From Bacillota bacterium (lineage in GTDB: Bacteria; Bacillota_A; Clostridia; Lachnospirales; Lachnospiraceae): a DNA stretch of 64,000 nt. The position numbers were made by a program, and so were the translations under genes. The stretch covers positions 434,001-498,000 of the forward strand of contig JAEYMU010000053.1 in the NCBI GenBank assembly GCA_023407175.1, read 5' to 3'. The notes below the pieces were generated by a model that saw only the letters and a program-made list of their open reading frames with translations, did not search any database and had not been told where the DNA came from. Below, in pieces: positions 10,641-51,692 of the stretch; the stretch's first letter is position 1; each line of letters begins with the position of its first letter.

Positions 10641-10650
10641 TCAAGTTTGC

Positions 10651-10708: not shown

Positions 10709-10714
10709 ATTGGG

Positions 10715-11860: not shown

Positions 11861-12630
11861 AAAATTATTTTACCAAAAGCTTTTTGCCCCTGCTGGCAGT
11901 TTGCCTTGGACTGACCATATCGGCTGTACTGCCTTCCCATACGGCCATGGCAAATACGAGCGCAGAGATTCAGCATGTATATGACGAAGCCGACCTGCTA
12001 TCCTCCTCCGAAGCGAAGGAGGTAGAGGATATGTGTTCACAGTACAGTGAAAAGGATGACCTTGATATCATCATCCTGACACACAAGGATGCCAGTGCTG
12101 TCGATGCCGAAACCTATATTGAAAACTTTTATGACAGCTTTTATGACAGCCGACGCAGTGACAGTGTTATCCTATTAATCGATTTATATAACCGCGTAGT
12201 TTTCATAGAAGGCTATGGCTTTGCAAAAACCAGTATAAATTCCGGCCGGATTGATAGCATCATTGATGAAATCACTCCTGACTTAAGCAATGGTAATTAC
12301 TCCGCTGCATTCCGGCAGTTTATCAAGCTTTCCGACCATTATATCAACACCGCTCCCATTTATTTAAACGTATGGCTTCATCTTGGCATAGCCCTTGCAA
12401 TCGGTGGAATTACTGTCGCAGTTATGGCATATAATGCCGGGGGCAGAATGACTGTGAGCGGAGGTACTTATCTGGAGCCCGGCAATTCCGGCCTGATTGG
12501 AAGAAGGGACGATTATATCCGCACCCTTGTTACACGTGTCAGAAAACCTCAGAATAATAACGGCGGTGGCGGTGGTGGAAGAATCTCTGCCGGCGGTCAT
12601 TCCCACAGCTCGGGAGGCGGCAGATTCTGA
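11857..12630 (+). CDS. ydjH: YdjH-like TPM-domain membrane protein
   Basis: 257 residues: N-terminal signal or anchor helix (KSFLPLLAVCLGLTISAVL), a TPM domain (about 38-160, with VYDEADLLSS and the phosphatase-like alpha/beta core), a second transmembrane helix (about 168-190) and a flexible tail ending in Gly/His/Ser-rich sequence (GGGGGG...GGHSHSSGGGRF), typical of TPM proteins. It overlaps ydjG by 4 nt. By analogy with Bacillus it belongs to the YdjGHI complex anchoring PspA at the membrane. Confidence 0.82.
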   Translation: MKNYFTKSFLPLLAVCLGLTISAVLPSHTAMANTSAEIQHVYDEADLLSSSEAKEVEDMCSQYSEKDDLDIIILTHKDASAVDAETYIENFYDSFYDSRRSDSVILLIDLYNRVVFIEGYGFAKTSINSGRIDSIIDEITPDLSNGNYSAAFRQFIKLSDHYINTAPIYLNVWLHLGIALAIGGITVAVMAYNAGGRMTVSGGTYLEPGNSGLIGRRDDYIRTLVTRVRKPQNNNGGGGGGRISAGGHSHSSGGGRF

Positions 12631-36415: not shown

Positions 36416-36916
36416 CTAATCTATCTTCTGAAATTTCTTAATTCTAAGTACAATTGCTGCCCCAAGCAGTCCGATCACAGCTCCCGTAACCGCTCCGGAA
36501 ATCAACAAAAAAGGAAGATAGGATACCAGTATCACATTATTTACCAACCAGACCGCCACCAGAATTTGTCCTATATTATGGGCTACTCCGCCGGTGATGC
36601 TGACACCCGTCATCCCCAGCAGCTTTGTTTTATATAACAGCGCCATGCATAACCAGCTTAAGAGTCCTCCGGCCATGCTAAACATAAGAGTTGCCGGACT
36701 TCCGAAGGTAAAGCTGACGAGTATAATCCGAATTACGGATAATACAAAGGCATCCCTTGCACCCAGGGTATATAAACCGCAGATTACCACCAGATTTGCC
36801 AGGCCCAGCTTGATTCCCGGAATAGGTATCGGCACCGGCAGGATACTTTCAATATAGCTTAGGAGGAATGCCAGTGCAATCAGCAGTCCATAGGTCGCTA
36901 CTCTTTTTGCTTTCAT
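36416..36916 (-). CDS. eetB: EetB-like membrane protein (Gx transporter / heptaprenyl diphosphate synthase component I family)
   Basis: 166 residues with about five transmembrane helices; the family signature PGIKLGLANLVVI and GGVAHNIGQIL are visible. Databases often call the family heptaprenyl diphosphate synthase component I or Gx transporter. In the Listeria flavin-based EET locus a membrane protein of this kind, EetB, is needed to pass electrons from Ndh2/quinol to the outside. An AAGGAG site lies 5 nt before the ATG. It is last in the operon, 12 nt after eetA. The same family also occurs beside rnf genes, but none are seen here. Confidence 0.78.
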   Translation of the reverse strand: MKAKRVATYGLLIALAFLLSYIESILPVPIPIPGIKLGLANLVVICGLYTLGARDAFVLSVIRIILVSFTFGSPATLMFSMAGGLLSWLCMALLYKTKLLGMTGVSITGGVAHNIGQILVAVWLVNNVILVSYLPFLLISGAVTGAVIGLLGAAIVLRIKKFQKID

Positions 36917-36928
36917 TTCTGCTCCTTA

Positions 36929-37300
36929 CTATTTGGCTGTTATGTCTACATCATCCTCTTCGCCGCCAACGATCTCAAGTACAACCTTATGCGGCAGGCA
37001 TACGATGGTCTCACCATTATAATGAATGCTTTTATGCTTTACGCAGAGCTTGTCCGGGCAGTTGGCACCGGTCATATCCACTATACCATCCTTAATGACT
37101 ACGGTATTATAATCCCCGTTTTCGTCCTCTATGGTTATTGTCGCATCCTTATCTAAATCCAGGGTTTTATATTCTTTTCCATTTACGGTAATTACAACCC
37201 TGCCGCCTTCTGTGCGATTCAGATTCAGGAAAAAGATTGCGGCTATTGCTATCAATATCAGAATTGCAAATAATATAATATCATTTTTTTTAATCATCAC
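36929..37300 (-). CDS. eetA: EetA-like NusG domain II protein
   Basis: 123 residues: an N-terminal membrane anchor (IILFAILILIAIAAIFFL), then an extracytoplasmic NusG domain II with conserved GANCPDKLCVKHKSI and ETIVCLPHKVVLEI. The two Cys in CPDKLC could bind metal or form a disulfide. It lies between fmnB and eetB, the expected EET context. EetA and EetB are thought to link the quinol pool to PplA; the mechanism is not established. Confidence 0.8.
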   Translation of the reverse strand: MMIKKNDIILFAILILIAIAAIFFLNLNRTEGGRVVITVNGKEYKTLDLDKDATITIEDENGDYNTVVIKDGIVDMTGANCPDKLCVKHKSIHYNGETIVCLPHKVVLEIVGGEEDDVDITAK

Positions 37301-37312
37301 AGGTCCCTTGTA

Positions 37313-38371
37313 TTATTTCACAATGAATTTTTGAAAACCGGAGCTATATTTTTGGGTTCCGTCCTTGAATACCCAGAGAGCTTCCGTATCCTCCAGGGAC
37401 TCAATCAGTTTAAGTCCATCCTCATAGGACATAATAAATATTGCGGTTGAAAGGGAATCCGCCATACCAGAATCCTTACATACAATGGAAACTGACAGAT
37501 ATTTATCTGCCGGCATCAGGGTGTCGGGGTCGATAATATGATGATACTGCTTTCCATCTACTGTATAATATCTTTCATAAACACCGCTTGTTACCAAGGA
37601 ATAGTCCTGAAGCGCAAGGATATACAAATTGGTATCGGAGCTTTCTGTATCCGGATTTTGAATTCCGATATGCCAGGGCTCCTCCTTGCCGTCCACCAGC
37701 TTGCTTCCGATCGTCCTGACATTACCTCCCACAGAAACAGTTCCATGGGTAAAACCATTGGCAGCTACATACTCGCATACCTGCTCTGTTGCATAGCCCT
37801 TGGCAATCGAGCCTACATCAAGGCTCATCTGGAAATCCTTCAGATATACGGTGGATGCTTCCTCATCGATAATCACATCATTAATATCCGTATGCTTTGC
37901 CTTTTCCTTCAATAAATCCATCGGCGGAAGCTCCGCATTCTCCGGGTCATCCAACCCTTCGGTGCGGTAATCGTGCCATATGGAAAGCACGGCACCCATG
38001 GCAATATTTTTCTTTCCTTCGCTAAGGTCATAGTCTTTCTTGGAAAGCTCTAAAAGATCAATAATTCTCTGATCAACCTTAACCGGTGCAATTCCGGCAT
38101 TGTCATTGATCGTTTTTATATTATTGATGCCTTCATAGGAATTGTAGATATCATATAGTTCATGATATTCTTTTAATTTATCATAAATCATCTGCGCATA
38201 TCCGGTAAACTCTTCTTTATTGTCGGCATATCCTACAATCGTTGTCACAGTATCAAACAAGTCCAGAAAGCTGGCCTCATACCGTTTCTCCCCGGCTTTA
38301 TTGCAACTGACCAGGCTGGCCAGTATAACTATCATAAGCATGACTGCTGTTATTTTCCTTCTCAAAATCAT
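37313..38371 (-). CDS. fmnB: FAD:protein FMN transferase FmnB (ApbE family lipoprotein)
   Basis: 352 residues with a lipoprotein signal (lipobox LVSC, C23) and an ApbE domain. Conserved features are SIAKGYATEQV, TVSVGGNVRTIG, YHHIIDPDTLMPAD and the Mg-binding DSGMADSLSTAIFIM. ApbE enzymes transfer FMN from FAD to a Thr/Ser in a D-x(2)-SGAT-like motif; here the expected substrates are PplA (38557-39573) and possibly Ndh2. The gene starts 185 nt after pplA, and that gap contains two hairpins. A TTG two codons downstream of the ATG would have better ribosome-site spacing. Confidence 0.9.
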   Translation of the reverse strand: MILRRKITAVMLMIVILASLVSCNKAGEKRYEASFLDLFDTVTTIVGYADNKEEFTGYAQMIYDKLKEYHELYDIYNSYEGINNIKTINDNAGIAPVKVDQRIIDLLELSKKDYDLSEGKKNIAMGAVLSIWHDYRTEGLDDPENAELPPMDLLKEKAKHTDINDVIIDEEASTVYLKDFQMSLDVGSIAKGYATEQVCEYVAANGFTHGTVSVGGNVRTIGSKLVDGKEEPWHIGIQNPDTESSDTNLYILALQDYSLVTSGVYERYYTVDGKQYHHIIDPDTLMPADKYLSVSIVCKDSGMADSLSTAIFIMSYEDGLKLIESLEDTEALWVFKDGTQKYSSGFQKFIVK

Positions 38372-38410
38372 CCACCTCTTATGTTAAGTATTATTCCGGC
38401 TTGTATGACG

Positions 38411-38484
38411 CTTATCTGTAGAATGTTGCACTAGATAAGTATGGGGGATTATCATCTCTACCTAAGTATGATGATTCATCCCCC
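38411..38484 (-). promoter_or_regulatory. Two hairpins between pplA and fmnB
   Basis: GGGGGAT-t-ATCATC (38443-38456) pairs with GATGAT-tc-ATCCCCC (38470-38484), and CTTATCT/AGATAAG (38411-38417/38433-38439) forms a second stem. With no clear U-run they may be a processing or partial-termination signal giving more pplA than fmnB message. Confidence 0.5.
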
Positions 38485-38556
38485 AAGCTTGATAACTGGT
38501 ATTTTATTTACCTGTAATGCCAGGACATACCGGTCCTATCAAATTTTTAAAACAAT

Positions 38557-39573
38557 TTATTTGGCATTTGTTACGGCCTTATCAACAACTGAAATTAAAG
38601 GTGTAATATGAATTGTTACAGAAGAAGTAAGATCCGCCTCAGTTGCAACACCCTCTTCACTCACTGCTATGCCGTTTACCTGATCAATTGTCTTGCCCTT
38701 TACATAATCAGCAAAGGAATTAGCCTGCTCATACCACTCTTTGCCGATTCCGGACTGATCCTTCATATTGTATGCTTCCTTCAGCTCCTGCTTTGTCTGA
38801 ACAGCTGCAGTTAAATCAGTTGTAATCGTACCGGTTGTATCAAAATTAACCTTACCCTGGGAAGCATCCACTACGCAGCTGGTAATCTTCTTATCAGCGT
38901 CTGTTGTTACTACAGAATAATAGGAATAAGCCTGTACCAAGCCTACGGCATCTGCTGTTGCATCTGTGGAATCACTAATGCTTGTTGAAATTGCAAGGCC
39001 AAGCTTGTCATTTGCGGAAGCACCTAAATCCTTTGCATTGGACACTGCCTTTTCAATCGCGGAGATAAAGTCTCCTACATGGATGGTTACAGAAGAAGTA
39101 AGATCAGCCTCAGTCGTAACGCCCTCTTCACTTACTGCAATACCCTTTACCTCATCAACGGTTTTTCCTACCACATAATCTGCGAAGGCGTCCGCCTGCT
39201 GATACCATTCCTTACCGATACCGGATTGGGAAGCCATACCGTAATCAGCACCCCTCTCCTGCTTTGTCTGAAATTCAGTTGCAACATCAGTTAAAAGCTT
39301 TCCTTCTGCGGAAAAATTAGCCTTAGTCTGTGCCACATCAATACGGCAAGCTAAAATCTTTCCGTCACTGCCAACTAATACGGCAGCCACCGTGGAATCC
39401 ACCTCGGCAAGTCCGTCAGCGTCTCCGGCGCTGGTCGAGCTGGCAAGGGATGTAACTACGCCAAGACCTGTTTTTGCTGCTGCGTCCGTGCCTGCATCCT
39501 TGCTTTTGCCACATGCGGTTAACAAGGACACTATTAATATCATGCTAAGCAGTAAGGTAACTAGTTTTTTCAT
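38557..39573 (-). CDS. pplA: PplA-like extracytoplasmic flavoprotein (FMN-binding lipoprotein with two repeats)
   Basis: 338 residues with a lipoprotein signal (LLTAC, C21). The mature part has two homologous repeats (about 35-180 and 190-338), each ending with the predicted flavinylation motif DLTSSVTIH (T163 and T320). In Listeria PplA is covalently loaded with two FMNs by FmnB and donates electrons to ferric iron or free flavins outside. ATG 39573 is chosen for its GGAGG site 6 nt upstream; the frame is open to 39660. The gene follows dmkA by 121 nt. Confidence 0.88.
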   Translation of the reverse strand: MKKLVTLLLSMILIVSLLTACGKSKDAGTDAAAKTGLGVVTSLASSTSAGDADGLAEVDSTVAAVLVGSDGKILACRIDVAQTKANFSAEGKLLTDVATEFQTKQERGADYGMASQSGIGKEWYQQADAFADYVVGKTVDEVKGIAVSEEGVTTEADLTSSVTIHVGDFISAIEKAVSNAKDLGASANDKLGLAISTSISDSTDATADAVGLVQAYSYYSVVTTDADKKITSCVVDASQGKVNFDTTGTITTDLTAAVQTKQELKEAYNMKDQSGIGKEWYEQANSFADYVKGKTIDQVNGIAVSEEGVATEADLTSSVTIHITPLISVVDKAVTNAK

Positions 39574-39694
39574 AAAATTCCTCCATCCTTCCGCCATTGG
39601 CGGTATTATTTGATTTTTATTTATTATGATCCGCTCTTTTGAAGCGAAACAATAACCCAAATGATTCGTGCAGCCTCGGCTGCAAATTGAACTA

Positions 39695-40609
39695 CTACGG
39701 AACCAGGCAGCTTATAAAAATAAAAGCAGCATTTGTCCCCATGATAATGATAAAATTCTTAATAGAGCAAATAAAGGTTACGGCCTTTTCCTGCCTGTGG
39801 AAGAAGGTATTAATATTCTTTTGCACAAGGAATATTGACAGTAGGGAAAGCAGGCAAACCGGAGAAAGTATCCCAATTATCACCATCACCACCGTAGCAG
39901 CGTAGGTCAGGTAATATAAGCCTGCAAATAAGTAAAGGGCCTTCCTGCCAATATAATAAGGCAGGGTATAACGTTTTACCTTGATATCATTCTCCACATC
40001 ACAGATGTTGTTGGCAAGCATAATATTTGCCGTGGTACAAAAGGGTGCAACGGAAAACAAAAGTAAAACCAGAAACGGAACAATCTTAACCTCCAGCGAT
40101 AGGGAAGTAAGGCTCAAATGGTAGGAAAGATACGTTCCCGGTTCCGAATTAATGTAAAGCAGGATAAACGGTATCATTACACCATAAAAAAACCCGGAAA
40201 ATATTTCACCAAGGGGCTGTCTGGAAATCGGCAGCGGTCCATATGTATAGAAAACGCCACACAGAAAGCACACCATCCCACAAAAAAACACCACCAGATC
40301 AGAGGAAAAAGCCAAATATAAACCAAGGGCCGTACTTATGCCAAACAGACAGTAAATAATCAGCAACGCTGTTCTTCGGCTAAATCCCAAACTTTGGTGA
40401 TTTGTCCTGGAATCAATATAATTGTTAATCGCTGTAGTTGTCAAGTCAAATAAAAACATTGCGGCAAAGAAAATGAATGTCAGTTTCCAGTTGATGATCT
40501 GCTTGCGATACAGCAAAAATGCAATTGTAATTGCAAAAGTAAATGTGCTGGTTATCTTCGTTTGTATTTCAATATAATTCAGAAATCTTTTCAACAAGAT
40601 CTTCTCCAT
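39695..40609 (-). CDS. dmkA: UbiA-family prenyltransferase DmkA (demethylmenaquinone synthesis)
   Basis: 304 residues with about nine transmembrane helices. The first prenyl-PP/Mg motif reads NNYIDSRTN, a divergent form of NDxxD, and the second is NNICDVENDIKVKR. In EET loci this enzyme prenylates 1,4-dihydroxy-2-naphthoate to make a demethylmenaquinone pool reserved for extracellular respiration. It follows dmkB, the expected supplier of its prenyl diphosphate, by 21 nt. MenA is the related housekeeping enzyme; the EET assignment rests on context. Confidence 0.82.
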   Translation of the reverse strand: MEKILLKRFLNYIEIQTKITSTFTFAITIAFLLYRKQIINWKLTFIFFAAMFLFDLTTTAINNYIDSRTNHQSLGFSRRTALLIIYCLFGISTALGLYLAFSSDLVVFFCGMVCFLCGVFYTYGPLPISRQPLGEIFSGFFYGVMIPFILLYINSEPGTYLSYHLSLTSLSLEVKIVPFLVLLLFSVAPFCTTANIMLANNICDVENDIKVKRYTLPYYIGRKALYLFAGLYYLTYAATVVMVIIGILSPVCLLSLLSIFLVQKNINTFFHRQEKAVTFICSIKNFIIIMGTNAAFIFISCLVP

Positions 40610-40630
40610 CCAATAATTCTTAATTCAGCT

Positions 40631-41611
40631 CTAGGTCCTGATCCGTGCCGCCTGATTTAAAATTGCAACCATTCTTTCCTTCTTACTCTGTGTCAGCTCC
40701 AGCCCATTGATCCGCTCCATGGCTTTCCTATAATATTTCCTAACGATCCCCTGTGTAAATGCAAGACCTCCGGTTTTTTCCACCGCCCCATTAATCTCTG
40801 CTCTATTTACTCCGCTTTCTGCAGCCTTTTCTTTAAATTCCTTCGACTGTGCAAAGGCATGAATGAGGGGCAGGGTAATTACTCCCTGTTCATAATCGGA
40901 TTGCACCGGCTTATTGGCTTCCTCTACTGAGGAATCAAAATCAATACAATCATCCGATAGCTGGAATATCATACCGATATAGTGGCCGAGCTGTCTGTAG
41001 CTTTTTGTTTCCCTTTCATCCAGGCCCGCAAGTACTGCTCCGCCGTAAAAGGAGGCCTCAAATAACGCAGCCGTTTTTCCTGAAATTATCTTCATATATT
41101 GAAAGATTGATAAATTTAAATTTTTATTATTGATATGCTGGTTCAATTCACCCAAGCAAAGTCTGCTGATATAATCAGGAATATCCAAATCCAGATAATC
41201 CTTTTTATTGGATATATCCGCCACTCGCCGCAAAGCAAGACTTAGAAGATAATCTCCGCAGATAACTGCTGTCCGTTTATCGTACTTTTTTTGCAGAGTG
41301 GCTTTTCCCCTCCGCAAATCCGCATTATCTATGACATCATCATGGACTAAGGTAGCAAGATGCAGGATTTCTATCGCAGCCGCTGTCTTAACCGCATTGA
41401 TATGGATCTTGCCCTCCTTATTCTCGGCGCAAGCAAGGATAGAAACAGCCCGGATAAATTTACCCTGGGATAAGGATAAATGCGTCAGATACTCGCGAAT
41501 GATTATCGGTGATTTTGTCAGAGCCTGGTCGACCTCTTTTTTCACAAGTCCGATTGCTTCCTCATAGCTCATAACATCATTATTCATATTCTTCGTTATA
41601 TTATTAGTCAT
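40631..41611 (-). CDS. dmkB: Polyprenyl diphosphate synthase DmkB
   Basis: About 326 residues of the trans-isoprenyl diphosphate synthase family. The first Asp-rich motif is LVHDDVIDNADLRRGK and the second QLSDDCIDFD. It would make the C35-type side chain for the demethylmenaquinone of the EET pathway. ATG 41611 overlaps the end of ndh2 by 8 nt, giving coupling; the frame is open to 41635, and the ribosome binding site is weak for either. It is followed by dmkA. Confidence 0.85.
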   Translation of the reverse strand: MTNNITKNMNNDVMSYEEAIGLVKKEVDQALTKSPIIIREYLTHLSLSQGKFIRAVSILACAENKEGKIHINAVKTAAAIEILHLATLVHDDVIDNADLRRGKATLQKKYDKRTAVICGDYLLSLALRRVADISNKKDYLDLDIPDYISRLCLGELNQHINNKNLNLSIFQYMKIISGKTAALFEASFYGGAVLAGLDERETKSYRQLGHYIGMIFQLSDDCIDFDSSVEEANKPVQSDYEQGVITLPLIHAFAQSKEFKEKAAESGVNRAEINGAVEKTGGLAFTQGIVRKYYRKAMERINGLELTQSKKERMVAILNQAARIRT

Positions 41612-43661
41612 TATAAAGATACGTCTTTCTGACAAATGGTAGTTTTTTCCACAGCTTCTTCAGTCCGGGCATCGCATAATAATCCAGTCCAAGGGTTCTG
41701 CCTGCACCAATCAACACAGCAATTGCAGCAAATATCATCCAGAAGGTTCCCAGATACAGACCTGTGGTACATACAAACATAAATTGCAGGATCAGTGAAA
41801 ATGCGGCTGCCGGTGATGTAAACAAGCCTCCGAGCAGTGCCAGACCGATAAGAATCTCCGCAACAACAATAAATATCTGCATTACCATCTGAATATTATC
41901 GTTTGCCAGAATCACCTTATCAACAAACCAGTTCATCAGTGGTATATCAAGCTTAAAGGCATAATCGCTAAGGGTGGACTGTACCCAGTCCTTGCCTGTT
42001 ACAAAAATTATTTTGAACAAGCCCAGGAAATTAAAATTAATCAGCACATGGCCAACTGCTACCGCAGCATCTGCGGAACCTGAGGCGGCTCCTGCCGAGT
42101 CGGTTGCGGAGGATACCGCGTCAACCGGAAGGGTACTAACTGTCTGGGACACTACTGACATTACCTTCGCAGCTGTACCGGCTGCAGCGGAGGTAGCACC
42201 TGAAGTGGCATCTGCCCCTCCTGACAGAATGCTGTTATACCAGCTGGTTGCTCCTCCGAAGAAGGCTTCCAGCTTAGGACTCTTAAACCAGCCTTCCGCA
42301 ATCTTCATAACTCCTTCAAAGACCCAGACTGCACCCAGCCAAAGTCTTAGGGGAACCAGAAGGAAGCTGGGCGTCCGGTTGGAAAAATGTCCGCCTACAA
42401 AGCTTCTGCAATTGCGGATGGTAAAGAATTCATGCCTCACATAACTGAATACCTTATTCCATCCAAGCACCTGTATAAAATAAATAATATTAATAAAATG
42501 CTTCGCAAACATTGCCAAAAAGGAAGGAAGGCTGAAGAAATGGCCTGGCAGTCCCACATGGGCAACCCCATACCGTCCTCCGATGCTTACCATTACACCG
42601 TGGAATTTCGGTTCATAGCTCTCAAGTTCAGCCTTGCCCGTTATCTCACTGGTAATATTATGTGCTGCCGTATCGGCGCTTTGTTCACAGTTTTCCACCA
42701 TCTGCGGAACCGGAGCCTTGTCCCCCTCCGCAATGTAGTACATATTATCACCGATAACATATACCTCCGGATGCTTTGTGGAACGAAGATATCCATCCAC
42801 CTGGATACGGCCTCCGCGCTGCACCTCAAGAGAGGCACCCGCCTGTCCGGTAATATCGGCACATTGAATTCCTGCGGCCCAAATTACCGTTGCAGTGTCT
42901 GCATGGCAAACCTGATCATCCTTTTTATATTCAATAAATCCCTCTCCTACTTTTGTAACAAAGGAATTCAAGATCAACTGCACACCCATTTTTTCAAGAC
43001 GTCTTGTTACCTTGCCCGATAATTTCTCAGGCAGGTTGGGGATTGGTCTGCTCAGGCCATCTATATTAACTAAAGTTACCTCGTTTTTATCAATATCAAA
43101 TTTCTCGCACAAAATCGGAACATATTCCGCTAATTCTCCGACCATTTCCACACCGGTAAAGCCGGCGCCAACAACATAGAAGGTCAGCAGCTTCTTTCTT
43201 GCAGCCGCCTCTGCCATACGGGAGGCCTGGCGGAACGTGTTTTCAATATGGTCCTTTAAAAGAACTGCATCATCATAGGACCAAAGCTGGTAGGAATTTT
43301 CCTCTGCACCCTCAACTCCGTAAAAGGTGGGCTTTGACCCCGCTGCCAGAACCAGATAGTCATAGGGATAGCTTTCCTGTGTTCCCTTAACAGCCCTTTG
43401 ATCAAAATCAATGGCAGTAACCGTATCCAGCTTGACCTGGACCTTTCTTCCGGCAAAGACCTTCTTTAAACTGATTTTGATGCTGTCCTCATCTACACGG
43501 TTTGCCGCAACCTCATGAAGCTCTGTCAGCATGGTGTGGAAGGGATTTTTATCTATGATTGTTATTTTAACATCTTCATGCTTTTTTAATCTTTTTGCCA
43601 GCTTCTTCGCAGTCAGAATTCCCGCATAACCGGCACCGACAATAACGATATTTTTCTCCAT
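41604..43661 (-). CDS. ndh2: Type II NADH dehydrogenase Ndh2 with DoxX-like membrane domain and putative flavinylation motifs
   Basis: 685 residues from ATG 43661, which has GGAGG 7 nt upstream; an in-frame GTG at 43673 overlaps that site. Residues 1-390 are an NDH-2 flavoprotein: FAD motif IVIVGAGYAGI, NADH motif FYVVGAGFTGVEMVGEL and VIGDN. The remaining 290 form a membrane domain that begins like DoxX (VPLRLWLGAVWVFEGVMKI). Between the first and later helices lies an Ala/Ser/Thr-rich stretch containing DATSGATS (484-491) and DAVSSATDS (514-522), both like ApbE flavinylation sites. First gene of the EET operon; it would feed NADH electrons to demethylmenaquinone. A Rex-like palindrome lies upstream. 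Confidence 0.88.
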   Translation of the reverse strand: MEKNIVIVGAGYAGILTAKKLAKRLKKHEDVKITIIDKNPFHTMLTELHEVAANRVDEDSIKISLKKVFAGRKVQVKLDTVTAIDFDQRAVKGTQESYPYDYLVLAAGSKPTFYGVEGAEENSYQLWSYDDAVLLKDHIENTFRQASRMAEAAARKKLLTFYVVGAGFTGVEMVGELAEYVPILCEKFDIDKNEVTLVNIDGLSRPIPNLPEKLSGKVTRRLEKMGVQLILNSFVTKVGEGFIEYKKDDQVCHADTATVIWAAGIQCADITGQAGASLEVQRGGRIQVDGYLRSTKHPEVYVIGDNMYYIAEGDKAPVPQMVENCEQSADTAAHNITSEITGKAELESYEPKFHGVMVSIGGRYGVAHVGLPGHFFSLPSFLAMFAKHFINIIYFIQVLGWNKVFSYVRHEFFTIRNCRSFVGGHFSNRTPSFLLVPLRLWLGAVWVFEGVMKIAEGWFKSPKLEAFFGGATSWYNSILSGGADATSGATSAAAGTAAKVMSVVSQTVSTLPVDAVSSATDSAGAASGSADAAVAVGHVLINFNFLGLFKIIFVTGKDWVQSTLSDYAFKLDIPLMNWFVDKVILANDNIQMVMQIFIVVAEILIGLALLGGLFTSPAAAFSLILQFMFVCTTGLYLGTFWMIFAAIAVLIGAGRTLGLDYYAMPGLKKLWKKLPFVRKTYLYND

Positions 43662-43771
43662 GTTTACCTCCACAATTATGTCTCACTTTTTGCGGGACAT
43701 TCTTCACATATTCGTTTTCTCAATAATTCATCTATATTCATTGTATCCAATATGGCAATAATTCATTAGAT

Positions 43772-43883: not shown

Positions 43884-44858
43884 TTATCGGCCCATTTGTT
43901 CCCGTAAAACATCGATTTGCTTTAGGTAATGCAGCAATAACAAATAGTAATCCGCCTTCTTTTGTACGCCAAGCACCAGCTTCTTATACTGAGTATTATC
44001 GGAAGCCGCCTTTTCTATAAAATTAAGCAGCTCTGAATTTATCTCTGATATTTCCGATATGTTATCATCCTGGGAGGTAATAACAGCCTTCACGTTTTGG
44101 ATCAGGCTATTTTCCAAACTTTCGAAATTATCAAAAACAACTGCGGAAGCCTCAACCATCTTCTGGGTCGACGGCATCATCTGGGCACCCTCCATTGTTT
44201 TATCATTCAGCTTATTAATAACCGTCGTCATGGAACCCAGAGAGTTGATTATACTTTTCGCATTCACCTGGGTGCTTTCGGAAAGCTTTTTGATTTCATC
44301 CGCCACAATGGCAAAGCCCCTTCCCTGCTCTCCTGCCCGGGCAGCCTCAATGGAGGCGTTCAGGGATAATAGCTTGGTTCTGTTGGCAATGCCGGAAATA
44401 ACTGAGGCCAGCTTCTCGATTTGATTATATTCCTGCTGCAATTCACCGAATAAGAGATTAAACTGTGCAAACACCTCAATCACATGATTCATCTCTGAAA
44501 CCATCGACTCATTTTTCTGCCTGGCCTCGGACAGCTCCGCAGTAGATTCCTCCAGGTTTCCTATGATCTCATCCAGCAATTCCTTGGTTTGGTTGCTGCT
44601 GGTGACCACACTTTGCAGATGCTGCTGCACATTCTGTATCTGCTCATTGGTATCGCTTTCATTATTCAGCAGGGAATTAAAATTACCGGTGCTGACTCCC
44701 TCTTCCTTAATTAGCTGATCCGTCTGTTTTTGAATCTGTCCCGCCAGCTCCAGAATAAAATCTGTGTAATCCGGGGCTTCTGCCCCCGCAGCGGCTGTTC
44801 CATTTCCGCTTATATCATCCATAGCTGCTGCATTCTTTTTTCCTAAGATTTTAAGCAT
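43884..44858 (-). CDS. Soluble methyl-accepting chemotaxis-type signalling protein
   Basis: 324 residues without a transmembrane helix. The C-terminal half is an MCP signalling domain: its hairpin tip is [48 protein letters not shown] (about 145-192, cited for position). The N-terminal part is coiled coil with no recognised sensor domain. The start lies 12 nt after the FIST gene, so FIST probably supplies the sensing function in trans. There is no CheA/CheW in the window. Confidence 0.88.
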
Positions 44859-44870
44859 CCTTTTGCCCTC

Positions 44871-45923
44871 CTATTCGACCAACAGCAATACCATCGTCTG
44901 GTTGGAATGGTTTCTGTAATACTGCTCTCCATAGCTGATAAAGCCGGCTGTATTCTCACAAAAGGCAAGCATTTCTCGATCAAATCCCGCCCAGGTTTTA
45001 TCCTGCAGGAATTTCAGGCTTCGTAAAATACAATTGACGGAAAATACAAAGGAAGGCTTAAACTCAGCACGTTTGATGGTTTCTCTTAATATTTGCAGAG
45101 GAGCTTCCGCCTTCAGCACCTGCAGGAAGGTATTCTCCATCAGCTCACAATAAAAGGTAATGGATTTATCACTGTTAACCTTCATTGGAGAAGCAATGAA
45201 AATGTCGTCCTCATAGTTTTTTCCAAAGGGATTATTCATAAAATAGTCCGGCAGCTCCTTTTCGCTGACGCCGATTGCCTTGGCATATTCCGTGCTTGCC
45301 GGGCTGTTGTTGAAGGTTTTTACTGTTCGGTTCAATATATCCGCCGAGGTTACCAGCAGTTCCTTTCCTGTCTGTGTATATATATTTTCCTTCATTATGC
45401 TGGTTCTTCTGCTGCTGTTAAAGAAAATGGCTGCGTTGCAGACTCTTTTTTGCCCAATAAATATGTAGGTTTCCTGAAACTTCAAATTGTCCCCGGCGCT
45501 GCCGCCTATGATTTTAAAATCCGGAGCCATAAAATAAAAGGTTGATAATACGCTTTCCTCCGTCTGGCTTAACCCGTCACACAGCAAAAGCATAAATGCA
45601 TTTTTATTATCCTTTACTTTTTCATAAGCCTTTTTTAAAGAATTAATACTTTTGATTGCCGGATAGGGAATTTCAACAATCTCGGCTTCCTTCTTAGAAT
45701 ATTGGAAGCCGGTGATCACACCGTCCTTATAGCCTTTGCAGGTATACTCTCCTGCGGTTGAGCATAGAATTGTATCCGGCGAGGCATTGCCCGAAAGCTC
45801 ACTGACCAAATCCGCCGACGCAAACAGTATCATACCTTCGTCTGCCGTCCTGCCGGTATCCCGCATATACGCCGATGCTTCATTGGCTGAAGTAAATAAT
45901 AATTGCTGCATATAAGCCCCCAT
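44871..45923 (-). CDS. FIST-domain sensory protein
   Basis: About 350 residues with FIST N (about 1-200, including ILCSTAGEY and GGSAGDNL) and FIST C (about 210-340, ending FISYGEQYYRNHSNQTMVLLLVE). FIST domains are proposed small-ligand sensors often coupled to chemotaxis or cyclic-di-GMP outputs, which fits the downstream soluble MCP. The start is uncertain: the frame is open to 45971, and ATGs at 45923 and 45911 follow G-rich sequence. The 45972-46193 region upstream shows no clear gene. Confidence 0.82.
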   Translation of the reverse strand: MGAYMQQLLFTSANEASAYMRDTGRTADEGMILFASADLVSELSGNASPDTILCSTAGEYTCKGYKDGVITGFQYSKKEAEIVEIPYPAIKSINSLKKAYEKVKDNKNAFMLLLCDGLSQTEESVLSTFYFMAPDFKIIGGSAGDNLKFQETYIFIGQKRVCNAAIFFNSSRRTSIMKENIYTQTGKELLVTSADILNRTVKTFNNSPASTEYAKAIGVSEKELPDYFMNNPFGKNYEDDIFIASPMKVNSDKSITFYCELMENTFLQVLKAEAPLQILRETIKRAEFKPSFVFSVNCILRSLKFLQDKTWAGFDREMLAFCENTAGFISYGEQYYRNHSNQTMVLLLVE

Positions 45924-46193
45924 TCTGCCATACCCCCCAGTTTGGGCTCCGGCCTCTCCCTTGTTAATCATAATTTTATGTCGAATTCAACGGATTTTCA
46001 ATATATTTTTATAATTCAGCTTTATGCCCAAAGAATAATCTATATTTCCTATGGGACTACTCTATTTTTAATCAAAAAACGTAATCTGTACCTATAATCT
46101 ATTATCTATTTATCGGTAATCAAATTACATTATATTAAGGGTTGGTCATATATACAAGAGCTTTTATTGATAATATTTTTCAATATCAGTAAA

Positions 46194-46240: not shown

Positions 46241-47038
46241 TCATTTCCCTTTGTTATGCCGCTCTATTGCATCGATTAGTGGGGGAAGCCCCTTAATATT
46301 AGCGATTACATAATCCGCCCCTGCTTCCCAATAAACCTTCGCTGCCCTGGCACAGGCTTTTTTTCGTTCTTCTCCGGTAAGCCGGTTGAATTCTTCCTCG
46401 GACAATCCCATGACCGAACTTCCCTCTACCACGCCCACGGAAAGGATTCCGGCATTCTTCCCCTCCTGGATGTCTGCCACAGTATCCCCCAGCTTAAGTA
46501 CAGTCATAACAGAAGAAACTCTCAAAGCCTCCATATTCTTAAATATCATATACGGATATGGCCTTCCCAGATTACTCACAAGGTCGGGGGTAAACCAGGT
46601 GTCGGCCTCATAGCCGGCTTCCTTTGCCTTGGCAGTTACAATTTCCATCATCTGACTGGTATAGCCAGTTGTAGAGCCGATTTTAATTCCCCTTTCCCGA
46701 AGTGCTGCAGCCGTTTCAACCACGTATGGCTTAGGCGCTGAAAACTCATGTACTATATTTAGGATACCTGCTTCGCTCTGCTCATATATGGCATCCACGT
46801 CCTCCTGTGTCCATTCCCTATCATGCTTTTCCAGCCACAGCTTTTGCAGACGCGGCTGGGACAGCATTGCTACAACATGATCTCTTTTGCGAAGTCCCAT
46901 TGGTTTTCTGACCTCCTCCAGTGTCGGAAGAATTCCCGCCTTCCTGAAGGCGTCTACAAATGCCTGTACCGGTGCCATACAACCGAAATCCACCGTCGTT
47001 CCGGCCCAGTCAAGAATTACTGCTTCTATTTTTCTCAT
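46241..47038 (-). CDS. phnX: Phosphonoacetaldehyde hydrolase PhnX
   Basis: 265-residue HAD-superfamily phosphonatase. The nucleophile D10 is in LDWAGTTVD, and the cap-domain Schiff-base lysine (K51) is in MGLRKRDH, matching Bacillus cereus K53. The Mg-site motif is LGDTVADI. It cleaves phosphonoacetaldehyde to acetaldehyde and phosphate, completing 2-aminoethylphosphonate catabolism started by PhnW 36 nt upstream. Last gene of the operon. Confidence 0.95.
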   Translation of the reverse strand: MRKIEAVILDWAGTTVDFGCMAPVQAFVDAFRKAGILPTLEEVRKPMGLRKRDHVVAMLSQPRLQKLWLEKHDREWTQEDVDAIYEQSEAGILNIVHEFSAPKPYVVETAAALRERGIKIGSTTGYTSQMMEIVTAKAKEAGYEADTWFTPDLVSNLGRPYPYMIFKNMEALRVSSVMTVLKLGDTVADIQEGKNAGILSVGVVEGSSVMGLSEEEFNRLTGEERKKACARAAKVYWEAGADYVIANIKGLPPLIDAIERHNKGK

Positions 47039-47074
47039 CTGCTTCTCCGTTCCTTAATGTACTAACTCAATATT

Positions 47075-48181
47075 TCAATCCTTCACACTAATCTCATTCT
47101 CCAGAAATTCCTTGATAATCTCACAAAGCCTTAGAATATCCTCCCGGTATATCTCACCAATATTTCCGATACGGAAGGTGTCTGCCTGTGTCACCTTGCC
47201 CGGATATATGGCATATCCGTTTGCCTTGATATAGGCATATAGCTCAGCAAAGGTAAAGTTCTGGTGATCGGGATAAAGAAAGCTGGTAATGATTGGTGAT
47301 TGGTGTGTACTGCCAATATAAGTATGAATGCCTATTTCCTCCATCTTTGCAATCAGCAGCCGGTTATTTTCAAAATATCTTTGGTTTCTGGCCTTAATTC
47401 CGCCTTCCTCCTCCAATTCCTCCAGCGCCTTTGCGAAGGCCAGTACTGTATGAGTGGGTGAAGTGAATCTCCATTTCCCGTCCTCCTCCATGGTCTCCCA
47501 CTGATCATATAAATCCAGGGACAAGCTCCTTGCCTTACCCTTGCACTCTAATAAAAGACTTCTTCTGGCGATAATGAAGGAAAAGCCGGGAACACCCTGA
47601 ATGCACTTGTTAGCAGAGCTGATCAAGAAATCGATTCCCATTTTCTGCATGGGTATATCCACTCCGCCAAAGCTGCTCATGGCATCCACAATAAAGACAC
47701 GTCCCTGGTCCTTCACCACCCTTGCCACTGCTTCAATATCATTTTGTATGCCAGAGGTGGTCTCAATATGTACCATGGATACATGGGAAACGGAAGGGTT
47801 TTTACTTAGGATATTCTTTATCTCCTCCGCATCGGGAATTCTGTTGTAGTTTTCCCTATAGGTTATAAAATCAAGTCCGTTGTGCTCCGCTATGTCTTCC
47901 ATGCGGTCACCGTAAGCTCCGTTTGCAACGATCAAAAGCTGGTCCTTTTTGCCCAGAGCGCTTGATAATACGGCTTCCACGCCATAGGTTCCGCTGCCCT
48001 GCAGCAAAATGACTGTATATTCCTGCGGCGAAGCATGGGCCAGCTCCAGAAGCCGGCTTCGTATCTTCTGGGTAATCTGCTTATAATCCTCATCCCAGGT
48101 ACAATGGTCGGATAGCATCTCTTTTTTCACAGAAGCCGTCGTCGTGAGCGGTCCAGGTGTCAGTAATTTATAGTTTATCAT
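47075..48181 (-). CDS. phnW: 2-aminoethylphosphonate:pyruvate transaminase PhnW
   Basis: 368-residue class V PLP aminotransferase. The PLP lysine is in SSANKCIQGVPGF, and the start LTPGPLTTTASVKKEML and VDAMSSFGG are classic PhnW. It converts 2-aminoethylphosphonate and pyruvate to phosphonoacetaldehyde and alanine. The upstream ABC genes probably import the substrate and phnX downstream finishes the pathway, giving P, C and N from a common natural phosphonate. Confidence 0.95.
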   Translation of the reverse strand: MINYKLLTPGPLTTTASVKKEMLSDHCTWDEDYKQITQKIRSRLLELAHASPQEYTVILLQGSGTYGVEAVLSSALGKKDQLLIVANGAYGDRMEDIAEHNGLDFITYRENYNRIPDAEEIKNILSKNPSVSHVSMVHIETTSGIQNDIEAVARVVKDQGRVFIVDAMSSFGGVDIPMQKMGIDFLISSANKCIQGVPGFSFIIARRSLLLECKGKARSLSLDLYDQWETMEEDGKWRFTSPTHTVLAFAKALEELEEEGGIKARNQRYFENNRLLIAKMEEIGIHTYIGSTHQSPIITSFLYPDHQNFTFAELYAYIKANGYAIYPGKVTQADTFRIGNIGEIYREDILRLCEIIKEFLENEISVKD

Positions 48182-48267
48182 TTCAACCTCATTCTGTAGT
48201 GCACTGCAAATTCGGCATGCACACGAATTTACAGCGCGTTCTTATTTTTATTATGTAAAGCAGCTTC

Positions 48268-49248
48268 CTACTTACAGCTCTCCGACAGCTCCTGATGCTT
48301 TTCCAGTAAATCCACCGTTAACTTTTCAGCAAATTTCTTCGGATAAGCGGAAGAGTTTGCACTGTCGGTAGTTTCGCCTTCGTACAGGGCATTCGGATAA
48401 TAGGTAATCAGCTCGGCCCTTGCATTTTTTATAATACACTCCGCCATCTCCATGGCCTTCGCATTAGTTTTATCCCCCTTATCCAGTACGGCCACTGATT
48501 CGGTTAAGGAGAAATTACCTTCGGTCGGATCGACAAAATCAATCGGAAGTCCTTCTGCCTTGTCGGCAACTGCCTGCTGCCTGAGTCCGAAGCCGATTGC
48601 GATTTCACCGGCGCGCAATTTTTTAAGCGGGCCGGAGCCGGACTCCTCAATATGGGCTCCGGCATTCTTATAGATACCGGTTAGTACCTCCTTTGCTCCA
48701 TCCTCGCCATAAGCTGTCACCAGGGCCTGTATCATCAGCCATGCTGTGGAGGAGGATGCAATATCGGGTACGGAAATCATTCCGCTGTACTCTGCGCCTG
48801 CAAGGTCCTTCAGGCAGGTTGGCAGGGTAAGATTATTCTCCTTCATTAATTCTGTATTCACAAGGATTGTACCCTCCTGTGATGTAATCGGTGCGCAGTA
48901 AGAGGGAAATTCATCAATTGTATTCACGTCGAAATCAAGATCAGTAAACATCTGATTCTGATCCTGGGCGCTTTCTACATAGAAGGTGCTCATCGTAATC
49001 AGATCCGCCTCCAGATTCTTGCCCTCTGCAAGCAGCTTTCCTCCCAGCTCCGAGGTTCCGAAGGTCTGGAATACATACTGATCCTTATAGCCGTTATGAT
49101 CGAGTGCGTTTTTCATGGCAAGAATTGCCTCATCATCCGCATTGGAATAGATTACTACCGTCTTATCCTTGGAGCCGCAGCCGCTAAGACCTGCACACAC
49201 CATCACTACTGCCAGCAGCAGCACCAATACTTTCTTTATATCTTTCAT
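48268..49248 (-). CDS. ABC substrate-binding lipoprotein, probably for 2-aminoethylphosphonate
   Basis: 326 residues with lipobox GLSGC and an iron/Fbp-like type 2 binding fold (VVIYSNADDEAILAMKNAL near the start), as in PhnS-type 2-aminoethylphosphonate binding proteins. AAAGGAG lies 7 nt before the ATG. The start is inside the 3' end of the permease gene (65-nt overlap in another frame). Ligand inferred from the adjacent phnW-phnX. Confidence 0.85.
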   Translation of the reverse strand: MKDIKKVLVLLLAVVMVCAGLSGCGSKDKTVVIYSNADDEAILAMKNALDHNGYKDQYVFQTFGTSELGGKLLAEGKNLEADLITMSTFYVESAQDQNQMFTDLDFDVNTIDEFPSYCAPITSQEGTILVNTELMKENNLTLPTCLKDLAGAEYSGMISVPDIASSSTAWLMIQALVTAYGEDGAKEVLTGIYKNAGAHIEESGSGPLKKLRAGEIAIGFGLRQQAVADKAEGLPIDFVDPTEGNFSLTESVAVLDKGDKTNAKAMEMAECIIKNARAELITYYPNALYEGETTDSANSSAYPKKFAEKLTVDLLEKHQELSESCK

Positions 49249-50881
49249 TATTTTTCTCCTTTCGAATTCCCAATCTGCCCAGACGAGTAAATACTACCCT
49301 GCCCGACAGATTTATAATTAATATCAGCATCGACAGAACAAATACTTCGTTAAATTTATTATAATATTGCAATTCCTTAATTTTGGCGGTTATCACCATG
49401 GTCCTTGCCCCTGCGATAAAGATGACTGCACTGATCGTTACCATTGCATTGATGAAGTAATAGCCGAATACCTCCACAATCGTCCCGAAAGCATTGGGCG
49501 TAACCACCCGCAGGATGGTATGAAGCCATTTGTCCCCCATCAAAAGTGCCGTAGTTTCCCAGGAGGCATTCATTTTAGACAGACAGCTCTTCATCATCAG
49601 ATAGGGGGTGGAAAAATAATGGACAATGGTACACCCAACGAGGATTGCCAGGGTTCCCTGCAAAAATGTTCCCGAAAAAACAAACAGATAGGAGAGCCCC
49701 AGCACCATTCCCGGAATGGTATTGGTTACCATTGCAATTCCCTCAATCATCCTTTTGATGGGATGTCCGAGATTACTGCGCGCCGTAATCAGGGCACTTC
49801 CATAAGCCGTCAATGTACCAAAGAAGGCCGTAATCAGTGATACCTTAAGGGAATTGATTACTACCTGCGACAATGCATTATCCCGAAAAACCGATTTGAT
49901 ATGGTCAAGTGTAAAGGTAATACGATAGGGCCATTCATGGATAAAGGGAAGTATAAAAATAACTGCGAAAACGGATAGAACACTGATAAGTATCAGAGTA
50001 CTGAAGGTCCCGCAGATTCCATCCCGCAGTCTGCTTTTTCTCACCTCCAGGTTACTAACCTTACTGTAACGGACATTGTATTTTTCCAGAGCATGAAGTC
50101 CAAGGATACTAAGCACGGACGGAAGCAGCATAACAAATGCTACTACGGCCCCTTTTCCAAAGTCCGGCACGCTTCCGAGCATTTCCTTGTAAAGCACGCC
50201 TGCGATTGTTTCATACCTTCCCCCCACTGAGGCAGGTATCCCAAAATCGGTAAAGCACAGAAAGAAGGTCTGTATAAATGCAGAGACCAGCGTGCTAAGA
50301 AGCGGTCGGAGCAAGGTGGTGCAAAAGGTTCTGACCGGATTGTCTCCCATGATACGGGATACCACCATAAAGCTTTTATCAATATAATGCATCGTGTTTT
50401 GTATTAACAAAAATGCCACCGGCAGCGTATAGATCACATACCCGGTCAGTAAACCGGCAAAGCCGTACAGCTCAAAGGGTTGCCTTCCCAATATTCTTGT
50501 AATCAGACCCTGCTTTCCAAAGGAATAAATGATTGCAAAGCCATAGGTTATGGTGGGCAGATACATGGGAAGCTGCGCCAGCCTGTAAACAAAAGTCTTA
50601 TGTATCCGCGGCAGCCCCGTATAATGAATAGTATAAGCCAGAAAAAAACCAAGCAGGGTTGAAGCCGCGGCACTTACCGCTGATATGACAAAGCTGTTTT
50701 GCAGCGCCTGAAAGAAGCCTCTTTTCCCAAGCACCTCCTGATAATTTGCCAGTCCGGTCTGCTCGTCTGCCTGCAGTGATTTAAACAGCAGCATTAATAT
50801 CGGAACGGCAAGAAATATGAGAAAATAGATGGTTACCACCAGAAATATTATTTTTAATTCCTTATTTTTTTTATGTTCCAT
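49184..50881 (-). CDS. ABC permease with two fused transmembrane units (2-aminoethylphosphonate type)
   Basis: About 565 residues with roughly twelve helices: two BPD_transp_1 halves fused (about 40-300 and 330-550), like PhnU and PhnV joined, or FbpB. Each half has an EAA-type loop (MVVSRIMGDNPVRTFCTTLLRP; ALLMGDKWLHTILRVVTPNAFG, cited for location). Starts at 50902, 50890 and 50881 are all possible after the ATPase stop at 50907; 50881 has the best upstream purine stretch. The last 21 codons overlap the binding-protein gene. Confidence 0.83.
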   Translation of the reverse strand: MEHKKNKELKIIFLVVTIYFLIFLAVPILMLLFKSLQADEQTGLANYQEVLGKRGFFQALQNSFVISAVSAAASTLLGFFLAYTIHYTGLPRIHKTFVYRLAQLPMYLPTITYGFAIIYSFGKQGLITRILGRQPFELYGFAGLLTGYVIYTLPVAFLLIQNTMHYIDKSFMVVSRIMGDNPVRTFCTTLLRPLLSTLVSAFIQTFFLCFTDFGIPASVGGRYETIAGVLYKEMLGSVPDFGKGAVVAFVMLLPSVLSILGLHALEKYNVRYSKVSNLEVRKSRLRDGICGTFSTLILISVLSVFAVIFILPFIHEWPYRITFTLDHIKSVFRDNALSQVVINSLKVSLITAFFGTLTAYGSALITARSNLGHPIKRMIEGIAMVTNTIPGMVLGLSYLFVFSGTFLQGTLAILVGCTIVHYFSTPYLMMKSCLSKMNASWETTALLMGDKWLHTILRVVTPNAFGTIVEVFGYYFINAMVTISAVIFIAGARTMVITAKIKELQYYNKFNEVFVLSMLILIINLSGRVVFTRLGRLGIRKEKNNERYKESIGAAAGSSDGVCRS

Positions 50882-50906
50882 ATGCCTCATCTCTTCACCC
50901 ATCAAC

Positions 50907-51692
50907 TCACACAGCGGGCAGGGAGGGCTGTGGCATGAAATTACTGTTCTGAACCGAAAAAAGCTCAAAGATATTGTTTCTCTTAATTTCCAGTTGATTC
51001 AGAATAAATTTTTGTACAAATGTATTTTCCGGTCTGTTAATTATGTCCTCAGGCTTCCCGAATTGAGAAATCCTTCCCTCATTTAAAATCAGAACACGGT
51101 TGGACAGGGTTAATGCTTCCTCCGGGTCATGTGTTACAATAATAGTCGTCAGATGGTATTCCCGAGCAATCGCCTTGATCCTATCCTTGATAGATTCCTT
51201 GATTACACCATCCAGTGCACTTAAGGGCTCATCCAGCAGCAAAAGCTTTGGTTTCATCACCAAAGTTCTGGCAAGAGCCACCCGCTGCTTCTGTCCCCCA
51301 GACAGCTGGTCAATTCTCTTATGCAGGTGCTCTTCAAGCTCCAGAAGATGGATTAATTCCTCAATTTCCTTCTGTGTGGACAGCTGCGGCTTATTCTTCA
51401 GGCCATAAGTAATGTTTTTGTAGACATTCAGGTTGGGAAACAAAGCATAATCCTGAAACACAATATTAAAGCCTCTTTTTTCCATCGGTACCTTCGTAAT
51501 ATCCTCCCCTTGGAACAGTATCCTTCCGCTGTCCATCCCGGTAATACCGAGGATCATATTCAGCAGAGAGGTCTTTCCACAGCCGGAGGATCCCAGGATG
51601 GATACAATCTCCCCCTCCTCAATTTCCAGACTGATATCCGTCAGTACGATCCTTCCATCATAACTCTTTTTTAAGTTCTCCAGTTTCAGCAT
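50907..51692 (-). CDS. ABC ATP-binding protein (2-aminoethylphosphonate type)
   Basis: 261 residues: Walker A GSSGCGKTS, Q-loop FQDYALFPN, signature LSGGQKQR, Walker B LLLLDEPLSALD and switch VTHDPEEA are all intact. It has no long regulatory C-terminal domain. First structural gene of the phosphonate transport operon; a TGTAG-N5-CTACA site lies 123 bp upstream. Confidence 0.9.
   Translation of the reverse strand: MLKLENLKKSYDGRIVLTDISLEIEEGEIVSILGSSGCGKTSLLNMILGITGMDSGRILFQGEDITKVPMEKRGFNIVFQDYALFPNLNVYKNITYGLKNKPQLSTQKEIEELIHLLELEEHLHKRIDQLSGGQKQRVALARTLVMKPKLLLLDEPLSALDGVIKESIKDRIKAIAREYHLTTIIVTHDPEEALTLSNRVLILNEGRISQFGKPEDIINRPENTFVQKFILNQLEIKRNNIFELFSVQNSNFMPQPSLPAV

Follow-up and report, generated by a model that had tools for sequence, protein, structure and literature searches.

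ApbE-type motifs on a predicted outside tether suggest flavinylation of a DoxX-fused type II NADH dehydrogenase in a clostridial extracellular electron transfer operon

The gene ndh2 (41604-43661, minus strand) lies in a 64,000-nucleotide stretch of contig JAEYMU010000053.1 (assembly GCA_023407175.1, Lachnospiraceae; hereafter the window) and encodes a type II NADH dehydrogenase (NDH-2) fused to a DoxX-like membrane domain, within an operon for flavin-based extracellular electron transfer (EET). We propose, with a probability of roughly three in four, that this Ndh2 is itself a substrate of FmnB, the ApbE-family flavin transferase of the same operon, and would carry flavin mononucleotide (FMN) on a tether outside the membrane, with electrons passing from quinol to FMN and on to PplA or other acceptors. 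ApbE-type flavinylation motifs on Ndh2 had been suggested in a first-pass annotation of the window, and that interpretation is supported by motif enrichment, conservation and operon linkage. Taken together, the sequences argue strongly that a known pathway contains an ApbE substrate of a new kind.

The open reading frame covers 41604-43673 on the minus strand, with an ATG start at 43661 and a product of 685 amino acids. Both motifs occupy the positions given by the first-pass annotation (DATSGATS at residues 484-491, DAVSSATDS at 514-522), and the protein is organised as follows, the structural limits being taken from an AlphaFold model with its predicted local distance difference test score (pLDDT).

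41604-43661, minus strand: ndh2, type II NADH dehydrogenase with a C-terminal four-helix DoxX-like membrane domain, 685 amino acids
42426-43661, minus strand: Ndh2 residues 1-412, complete NDH-2 domain (flavin adenine dinucleotide (FAD)/NADH fold and membrane helix)
41607-42425, minus strand: Ndh2 residues 413-685, DoxX-like domain with helices 433-455, 588-611, 615-632 and 641-652 (AlphaFold secondary structure; weak DoxX match)
41901-42296, minus strand: Ndh2 residues 456-587, loop that follows helix 1 of the DoxX-like domain and is predicted to be extracytosolic; contains one helix (464-479) and three strands (538-545, 549-555 and 567-572)
42060-42215, minus strand: Ndh2 residues 483-534, the sole segment with pLDDT <50 (AlphaFold), presumed to be a disordered tether carrying both motifs
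42192-42212, minus strand: site 1, DATSGAT (residues 484-490), canonical ApbE motif, putative acceptor Thr490
42102-42122, minus strand: site 2, DAVSSAT (residues 514-520), ApbE-like with Ser at -2 from the putative acceptor, Thr520

Ndh2 has the two-dinucleotide-fold FAD/NADH domain and the membrane helix that define the NDH-2 family. The DoxX-like nature of its C-terminal part had been recognised correctly, but it is weak by sequence: with the DoxX/DoxD family taken as PF07681 and PF04173, the C-terminal piece scored 16.6 bits on PF07681, under the Pfam cut-off of 23.6, three relatives (P0241, P0123 and L151) scored above it at 25.2-25.5 bits, and two others (L129 and L134) reached 23.3 and 15.4. 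Compared with the D-x-x-[ST]-G-A-[ST]-like motif of ApbE substrates, site 1 is an exact match and site 2 differs by its Ser at -2. Both acceptors are encoded by ACC, at 42192-42194 (Thr490) and 42102-42104 (Thr520), and by the sequence trypsin would release the two motifs on peptides of 36 and 51 residues.

Motif frequency was assessed with a stricter pattern, D..[ST][SGA]A[ST], and a broad one, [DE]..[ST].A[ST]. Among the best 120 homologues listed, 117 loops were parsed and three were not; the parsed loops contained 256 copies of the stricter motif, whereas 2000 composition shuffles averaged 4.15 and peaked at 15, and 116 of the parsed loops had at least one copy. Because the top homologues are similar to one another, 486 proteins were collapsed to 95 clusters (79 long-loop and 16 short-loop, with loops delimited by alignment; loci L184-L224 were found later and stand outside the cluster statistics). 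The 79 long-loop clusters retained 121 stricter copies, distributed over 66 loops, against a shuffle mean of 0.73 (maximum 4, 500 shuffles), and fully canonical copies with Gly at -2 numbered 16 against 0.21. Shifting the Asp by -1, +1, +2 or +3 gave 0, 0, 3 and 2 copies (shuffle means 0.69-0.78), the reversed pattern gave one, and replacing D by K/R/N/Q gave four (shuffle 1.25). As a baseline, residues 1-430 of the 95 cluster heads (40,850 amino acids) held no motif and the other open frames at the loci held 36 in 535,162 amino acids; Ala/Ser/Thr-rich 40-residue windows contained 84 motifs in 74 windows of Ndh2 loops versus one in 25 windows of other genes. The loops are indeed rich in A, T, V, S and G, with Ala the commonest residue, and the first-pass annotation had allowed that ApbE-like words might arise by composition in such a low-complexity linker, an explanation made extremely improbable by the 121 copies against 0.73, their disappearance at -1 and +1 spacing, the comparison of Ala/Ser/Thr-rich windows and an acceptor column that is never Ala. 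By these counts, the occurrence of the motif in Ndh2 loops is not due to chance.

Conservation was examined in an alignment of 116 sequences, comprising the window protein and others 45-76% identical to it. Column 490 contains Thr in 75, Ser in 29, a gap in 10 and Met in two, while column 520 contains Thr in 78, Ser in 34 and Met, a gap, Glu and Asp in one each; Ala never occurs in either. Thr or Ser is thus kept at the acceptor in 104/116 sequences for site 1 and 112/116 for site 2, despite the Ala-rich loop. At position -6, Asp is found in 98 and Glu in 6 sequences (site 1), and in 106 and 7 (site 2). The conserved residues coincide with the ApbE motif, namely D(-6), S/T(-3), A(-1) and T/S(0). 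Across the related loci with the residue in place (48 for site 1, 58 for site 2), the retained Thr is encoded by ACA, ACC, ACG and ACT; the codon drifts over all four forms, and it is therefore the amino acid, not the DNA, that is maintained.

The motif extends over several lineages. Counts were made over listed proteins of at least 560 amino acids (10 of 360 were shorter and were dropped), scanning everything after residue 420, and the labels Paenibacillus-like and Turicibacter-like follow the source names of the sequences. The stricter motif was present in 116/117 listed proteins of the Clostridia set, in 116/116 of the Paenibacillus-like set and in 71 of the 80 related loci L001-L080, 75 of which had the broad form. 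L010 and L026, among the related loci, come from Lachnotalea glycerini and Ruminiclostridium cellobioparum, cultured bacteria with the EET operon. Of 398 genomes sampled from the class of G419 (Paenibacillus-like), 36 had an Ndh2 match, made up of L145, L146, G641 (L157, DAVTGAT), 20 Paenibacillus-like loci and 13 further loci. The stricter motif occurred in 19 of the 20 Paenibacillus-like loci; the 13 further loci, from genomes of 2.1-3.1 Mb and including two with identical C termini, contained [ST]GA[ST] in 12, D..[ST]GA[ST] in nine (for instance DPVSGAS together with EATSGAS, or DATSGAS) and, in the stretch available, ApbE in 12. Copy number varied among 334 proteins of at least 646 amino acids: no stricter copy in 115, one in 57, two in 117, three in 33, four in 11 and seven in one.

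This variation in copy number, from 0 to 7, together with near-identical tandem units in some proteins, would also suit an amphipathic or wall-spanning linker in which structural units (DAVTAAT, seven in L144) were duplicated and the likeness to ApbE sites is accidental. Such a repeat is improbable, given that the loop falls below pLDDT 50 and is presumably disordered, that conservation picks out the ApbE motif residues, and that the motif is common to Paenibacillus-like and other Bacilli loops that are otherwise unlike; loop types of distant relatives, judged by eye, resemble one another only in the motif. The seven units of L144 (7366-9627) stand in tandem on a single Ndh2 tether. At L134, two distinct ndh2 paralogues (9833-12109 and 17038-19110) share one EET cluster and bear the canonical sites DVTTGAT and DALSGAT. 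A clostridial-type Ndh2 with the motif was also seen at L065, on a contig labelled as a Spirochaetaceae metagenome-assembled genome, either through a binning error or through transfer.

The structural model was computed from 116 sequences, an earlier one from 28 close sequences having had a poor membrane part, and reached a mean pLDDT of 86.7 and a predicted template modelling score of 0.75. Besides the low-confidence segment 483-534, which holds both motifs within the first loop after helix 1 of the DoxX-like domain, 27 residues lay at pLDDT 50-70. The type II NADH dehydrogenases 5na1 (S. aureus) and 4nwz (C. thermarum) can be superposed, over their entire resolved chains, on Ndh2 residues 2-412 and 2-408, respectively; both end where Ndh2 continues into the DoxX-like domain with its motif loop; with the full-length query, Foldseek and VIA match lists were dominated by the NDH-2 domain. 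NDH-2 enzymes sit on the inner membrane face, and the NDH-2 domain is placed in the cytosol because NADH is cytosolic. A basic stretch (400-432) precedes helix 433-455, followed by three further helices and a basic C terminus; helix 433-455 is predicted to take the chain outside, and the other three to return the C terminus inside. From the superposition, the charge pattern and the helix count, the motif loop between helices 1 and 2 is predicted to lie outside the membrane and not on the cytoplasmic side. FmnB and PplA would be found there too, since both have lipobox-like N termini. Our guess is that helix 464-479, together with strands 538-572, folds into a small subdomain outside the membrane and gives the flavin a docking place.

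Genes ndh2, dmkA/ubiA, dmkB/hepT, pplA, fmnB, eetA and eetB cluster at 36416-43661 on a single strand, as in the Gram-positive flavin-based EET locus. The companions of ndh2 are the following.

40631-41611, minus strand: hepT/dmkB-like polyprenyl synthase (PF00348), start overlapping the ndh2 stop
39695-40609, minus strand: ubiA/dmkA-like prenyltransferase for quinone synthesis (PF01040)
38557-39573, minus strand: pplA-like lipoprotein with two DLTSSVT sites at 39085-39105 and 38614-38634 (no Pfam family matched at E 0.001; assignment from the sites and a lipobox)
37313-38371, minus strand: fmnB, ApbE-family flavin transferase with a lipobox-like N terminus, LVSC (PF02424, E 9.2e-68)
36929-37300, minus strand: eetA-like, NusG_II domain (PF07009)
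36416-36916, minus strand: eetB-like, Hpre_diP_synt_I / ECF substrate-binding family (PF07456)

The PF02424 gene, on the same strand as ndh2, is the ApbE gene that had been reported in this operon, and FmnB is likely to be the enzyme that modifies Ndh2. ApbE lies within 6 kb of ndh2 in 42/43 related loci and 30/40 whole-genome loci with at least 6 kb on both sides. Among 398 sampled genomes, ApbE was present in all 44 with an Ndh2 match (E 1e-90) versus 218 of the 354 others (Fisher p 2.6e-9, uncorrected for kinship, the genomes not being independent). Co-occurrence of the motif with fmnB, which the first-pass annotation had put forward as a check, is seen in this operon; at L129, L131 and L133, ApbE is accompanied by a motif-less Ndh2. 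At L007 and L020, a one-motif Ndh2 stands beside ubiA/hepT-like matches, and the available flanks gave no apbE or pplA match.

PplA was matched in 64 of the 80 loci L001-L080 and in all 20 Paenibacillus-like loci. Of those 64 proteins, 41 have a D..[ST].[AVG][ST] site, 38 have D..[ST]SVT and none has Gly at -2; the other 23 are without a site of the pattern used, some of them ending at a contig edge. PplA shares its ApbE-site preference with site 2 of Ndh2, since both have Ser at -2. At L213, L215 and L218, Glu occupies -6 in both PplA (EVVSGAT) and Ndh2 (EATSGAS or EPVSGAS). Two further ideas on this pair were abandoned. Loci combining FmnB and a motif-bearing Ndh2 without PplA were dropped as a category, L213, L215, L218 and L221 having PplA-like lipoproteins (EVVSGAT/EVVTGAT). 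Covariation of the Ser/Thr acceptor was suggested by Paenibacillus-like loci, mostly Ser in both proteins (DAISGVS / D..SAAS), but no claim is made on it because in L125 (Turicibacter-like) the acceptor is Thr for PplA but Ser for Ndh2.

Several results weigh against flavinylation of Ndh2. The FMN_bind domain (PF04205) was found neither in Ndh2 (E 0.001) nor, with the threshold relaxed to E 10, in the C-terminal piece, and because of this Ndh2 may act like NqrC, RnfG and PplA, yet is no member of their FMN_bind-domain kind. The stricter motif occurs in just 18/117 listed Turicibacter-like proteins (the broad one in 117/117), a set that supplies 99 of the 115 zero-copy proteins. Five of the 80 related loci (L042, L047, L049, L071 and L079) lack even the broad motif, as do L135 and L149, although L042, L071, L079, L135 and L149 still match [DE]...[GSA]A[ST] with another residue at -3; in L049 the acceptor is Met. 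The whole-genome loci L125-L179 have the stricter motif in 17/55 and the broad in 22/55, with 33/55 proteins of at most 645 amino acids. Of the 44 genomes with an Ndh2 match, only 14 have the stricter motif and 17 the broad, and in 32 no such protein is longer than 645 amino acids, so the genome-level association with ApbE concerns the fused enzyme more than the motif, and our confidence is slightly lower for it. Loops of L129, L131 and L133 are motif-less with ApbE 3.5-4 kb away, L129 has a PplA-like lipoprotein with D..[ST]SVT beside its motif-less Ndh2, and in the order to which these and L130 belong all eight genomes have an Ndh2 match, none of the four read bearing the motif. Short-loop homologues, mostly of 580-645 amino acids, show D..[ST][SGA]A[ST] in only one of 16 clusters. 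Only 16 of the 121 long-loop copies have Gly at -2, and in one tested substrate flavinylation fell to about 50% when Gly was changed to Ala or Ala to Val; a Thr to Ser change cost 10-55% (PMC12052999). The outside location is a prediction of topology only, and covalent FMN on Ndh2, though probable, is a prediction from sequence.

Two of these groups have loops of their own character. L129, L130, L131 and L133 possess a longer, ordered-looking loop with two Cys (YCTLNEFP...GLxC) in place of the motif loop, and ApbE is near in three of them. Short loops of L150-L179 (e.g. L151, L159, L160) have a (D/N)KL(V/A)(S/A)G(A/S)S-like core, apbE frequently lies 0.1-1.6 kb from them, and [SA]G[AS][ST] is present in all 16 short-loop cluster loops. 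Short-loop homologues could possibly carry ApbE sites; with the Asp one residue too far, this core might represent a variant of the ApbE site or have another meaning.

The two sites of the window protein may not be equivalent. Gly at -2, present at site 1, is the published consensus and its loss lowers the yield (PMC12052999, PMC10722498), from which it might be supposed that only DATSGAT is used here and that DAVSSAT is a relic or a poor substrate. We consider this unlikely, though to be kept in mind: conservation is stronger at column 514-520 than at site 1, with D in 106 and T/S in 112 of 116 sequences, and the operon's own PplA has Ser at -2 twice. As for the other positions, loss of the Asp had only minor effects in one tested substrate (PMC12052999), and the Asp is called essential for the V. 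cholerae ApbE (PMC10722498).

In the mechanism that we favour, flavinylation of Ndh2 for outward electron transfer, FmnB at the outer membrane face would couple FMN through a phosphoester to Thr490, the canonical site, and probably also to Thr520, because a seven-residue motif is enough for ApbE and works, at lower yield, even in a surface loop (PMC12052999). The attachment region would be the Ala/Ser/Thr-rich tether that joins helices 1 and 2 of the DoxX-like domain and is presumably disordered. Electrons would travel from NADH to FAD in the cytosolic NDH-2 domain and then to demethylmenaquinone made with the hepT and ubiA products, and the demethylmenaquinol would reduce the tethered outside FMN, which, with the tether as a swinging arm, would pass them to PplA or other acceptors. 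Attachment of the FMN, its reduction by quinol and the relay to PplA are steps that we infer.

The alternative that survives best accepts flavinylated sites and assigns the flavin a different role: in place of a relay to PplA, it would reduce ferric iron or other acceptors directly at the outer face, or serve for anchoring. PplA is stated to be dispensable for E. faecalis EET to ferric ion (PMC9864754), which fits a flavin on the dehydrogenase that reduces acceptors directly, but PplA was matched in most of the loci L001-L080 and in every Paenibacillus-like locus, as given above; we regard this alternative as a serious possibility, if not one that we would favour. Slightly more plausible to us, and still tentative, is a broader extension of the proposed FmnB-dependent flavinylation in which the DoxX-fused Ndh2 would be a self-contained transmembrane electron exporter: NADH would be oxidised by the FAD on the cytosolic side, quinone would traverse the membrane either inside the four-helix domain or alongside it, and the disordered tether outside, loaded with one to seven FMNs, would swing as a multi-flavin arm and directly reduce PplA, other flavinylated reductases or ferric iron. 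If so, the tether would be a natural flavin analogue of the lipoyl swinging arm, and it would be explained why ferric reduction in E. faecalis needs EetB, the suggested FAD supplier of FmnB, but not PplA (PMC9864754).

Neighbouring genes were named by reading their sequences. The segment directly upstream of ndh2 (43884-45971, same strand) encodes a signalling protein of the methyl-accepting type and another protein that is FIST-like; these genes may serve sensing beside the EET operon. Beyond them, 46241-51692 contains phosphonoacetaldehyde hydrolase-, 2-aminoethylphosphonate transaminase- and ABC transporter-like genes, consistent with ordinary phosphonate use.

NqrB and RnfD are themselves membrane proteins. 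Na+-NQR, whose NqrB and NqrC are ApbE-modified, is likewise a membrane NADH dehydrogenase system with covalent FMN (PMC12052999); by description it is set apart as a six-subunit pump, whereas Ndh2 is a single-chain type II enzyme with putative sites on a loop. The closest known system is the FLEET locus of Listeria monocytogenes, which has the same set of Ndh2, DmkA/B, EetA/B, PplA and FmnB (FmnA was outside the comparison) and in which Ndh2 is taken as the NADH:quinone donor and PplA and FrdA as FmnB-modified proteins (PMC8906456, PMC9888254, PMC9094743). In the parts available, the FLEET Ndh2 is not described with covalent FMN, whereas the window Ndh2 has conserved ApbE sites of its own; the Listeria and Enterococcus enzymes are known here by description only. 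FMN_red proteins, mostly from Firmicutes, resemble Ndh2 in having a disordered stretch that bears one or two ApbE motifs, no FMN_bind domain and a co-located apbE, but they are different proteins with the motifs on a C-terminal extension that tethers by a conserved flavin site (PMC11334425). The Flavin-tag, a seven-residue peptide, demonstrates that a short motif at a terminus or in a surface loop suffices (PMC12052999, PMC10722498); it is engineered, and Ndh2 would be an example from nature.

Ndh2 as an ApbE substrate was not found in the literature searched, preprints being outside the scope, an absence from searches that is no proof. In the main text available from two broad surveys of ApbE substrates (PMC8238504, PMC11334425) no word starts with 'Ndh', the former using a membrane-helix NADH dehydrogenase solely as an EET marker gene; the available part of a 2025 ApbE review (PMC12052999) has no mention of 'Ndh2', and the corresponding parts of PMC10572741, PMC8837199, PMC9888254, PMC9864754, PMC8906456, PMC9094743 and PMC10722498 do not name Ndh2 as an ApbE substrate.

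Ndh2 is reported to be required for EET in L. plantarum, where PplA is conditionally required (PMC8837199); in E. faecalis, EET requires EetB, with its suggested supply of FAD to FmnB, and the NADH dehydrogenase Ndh3 (PMC9864754). The direct electron donor to ferric ion in Gram-positive electrogenic envelopes is stated as not known (PMC9864754). If our prediction is true, a flavinylated dehydrogenase, of a kind on which EET is already known to depend, would fill this gap and would add a natural class of ApbE substrate, with flavin in variable number on the disordered tether of a membrane dehydrogenase, in several lineages of Bacillota.

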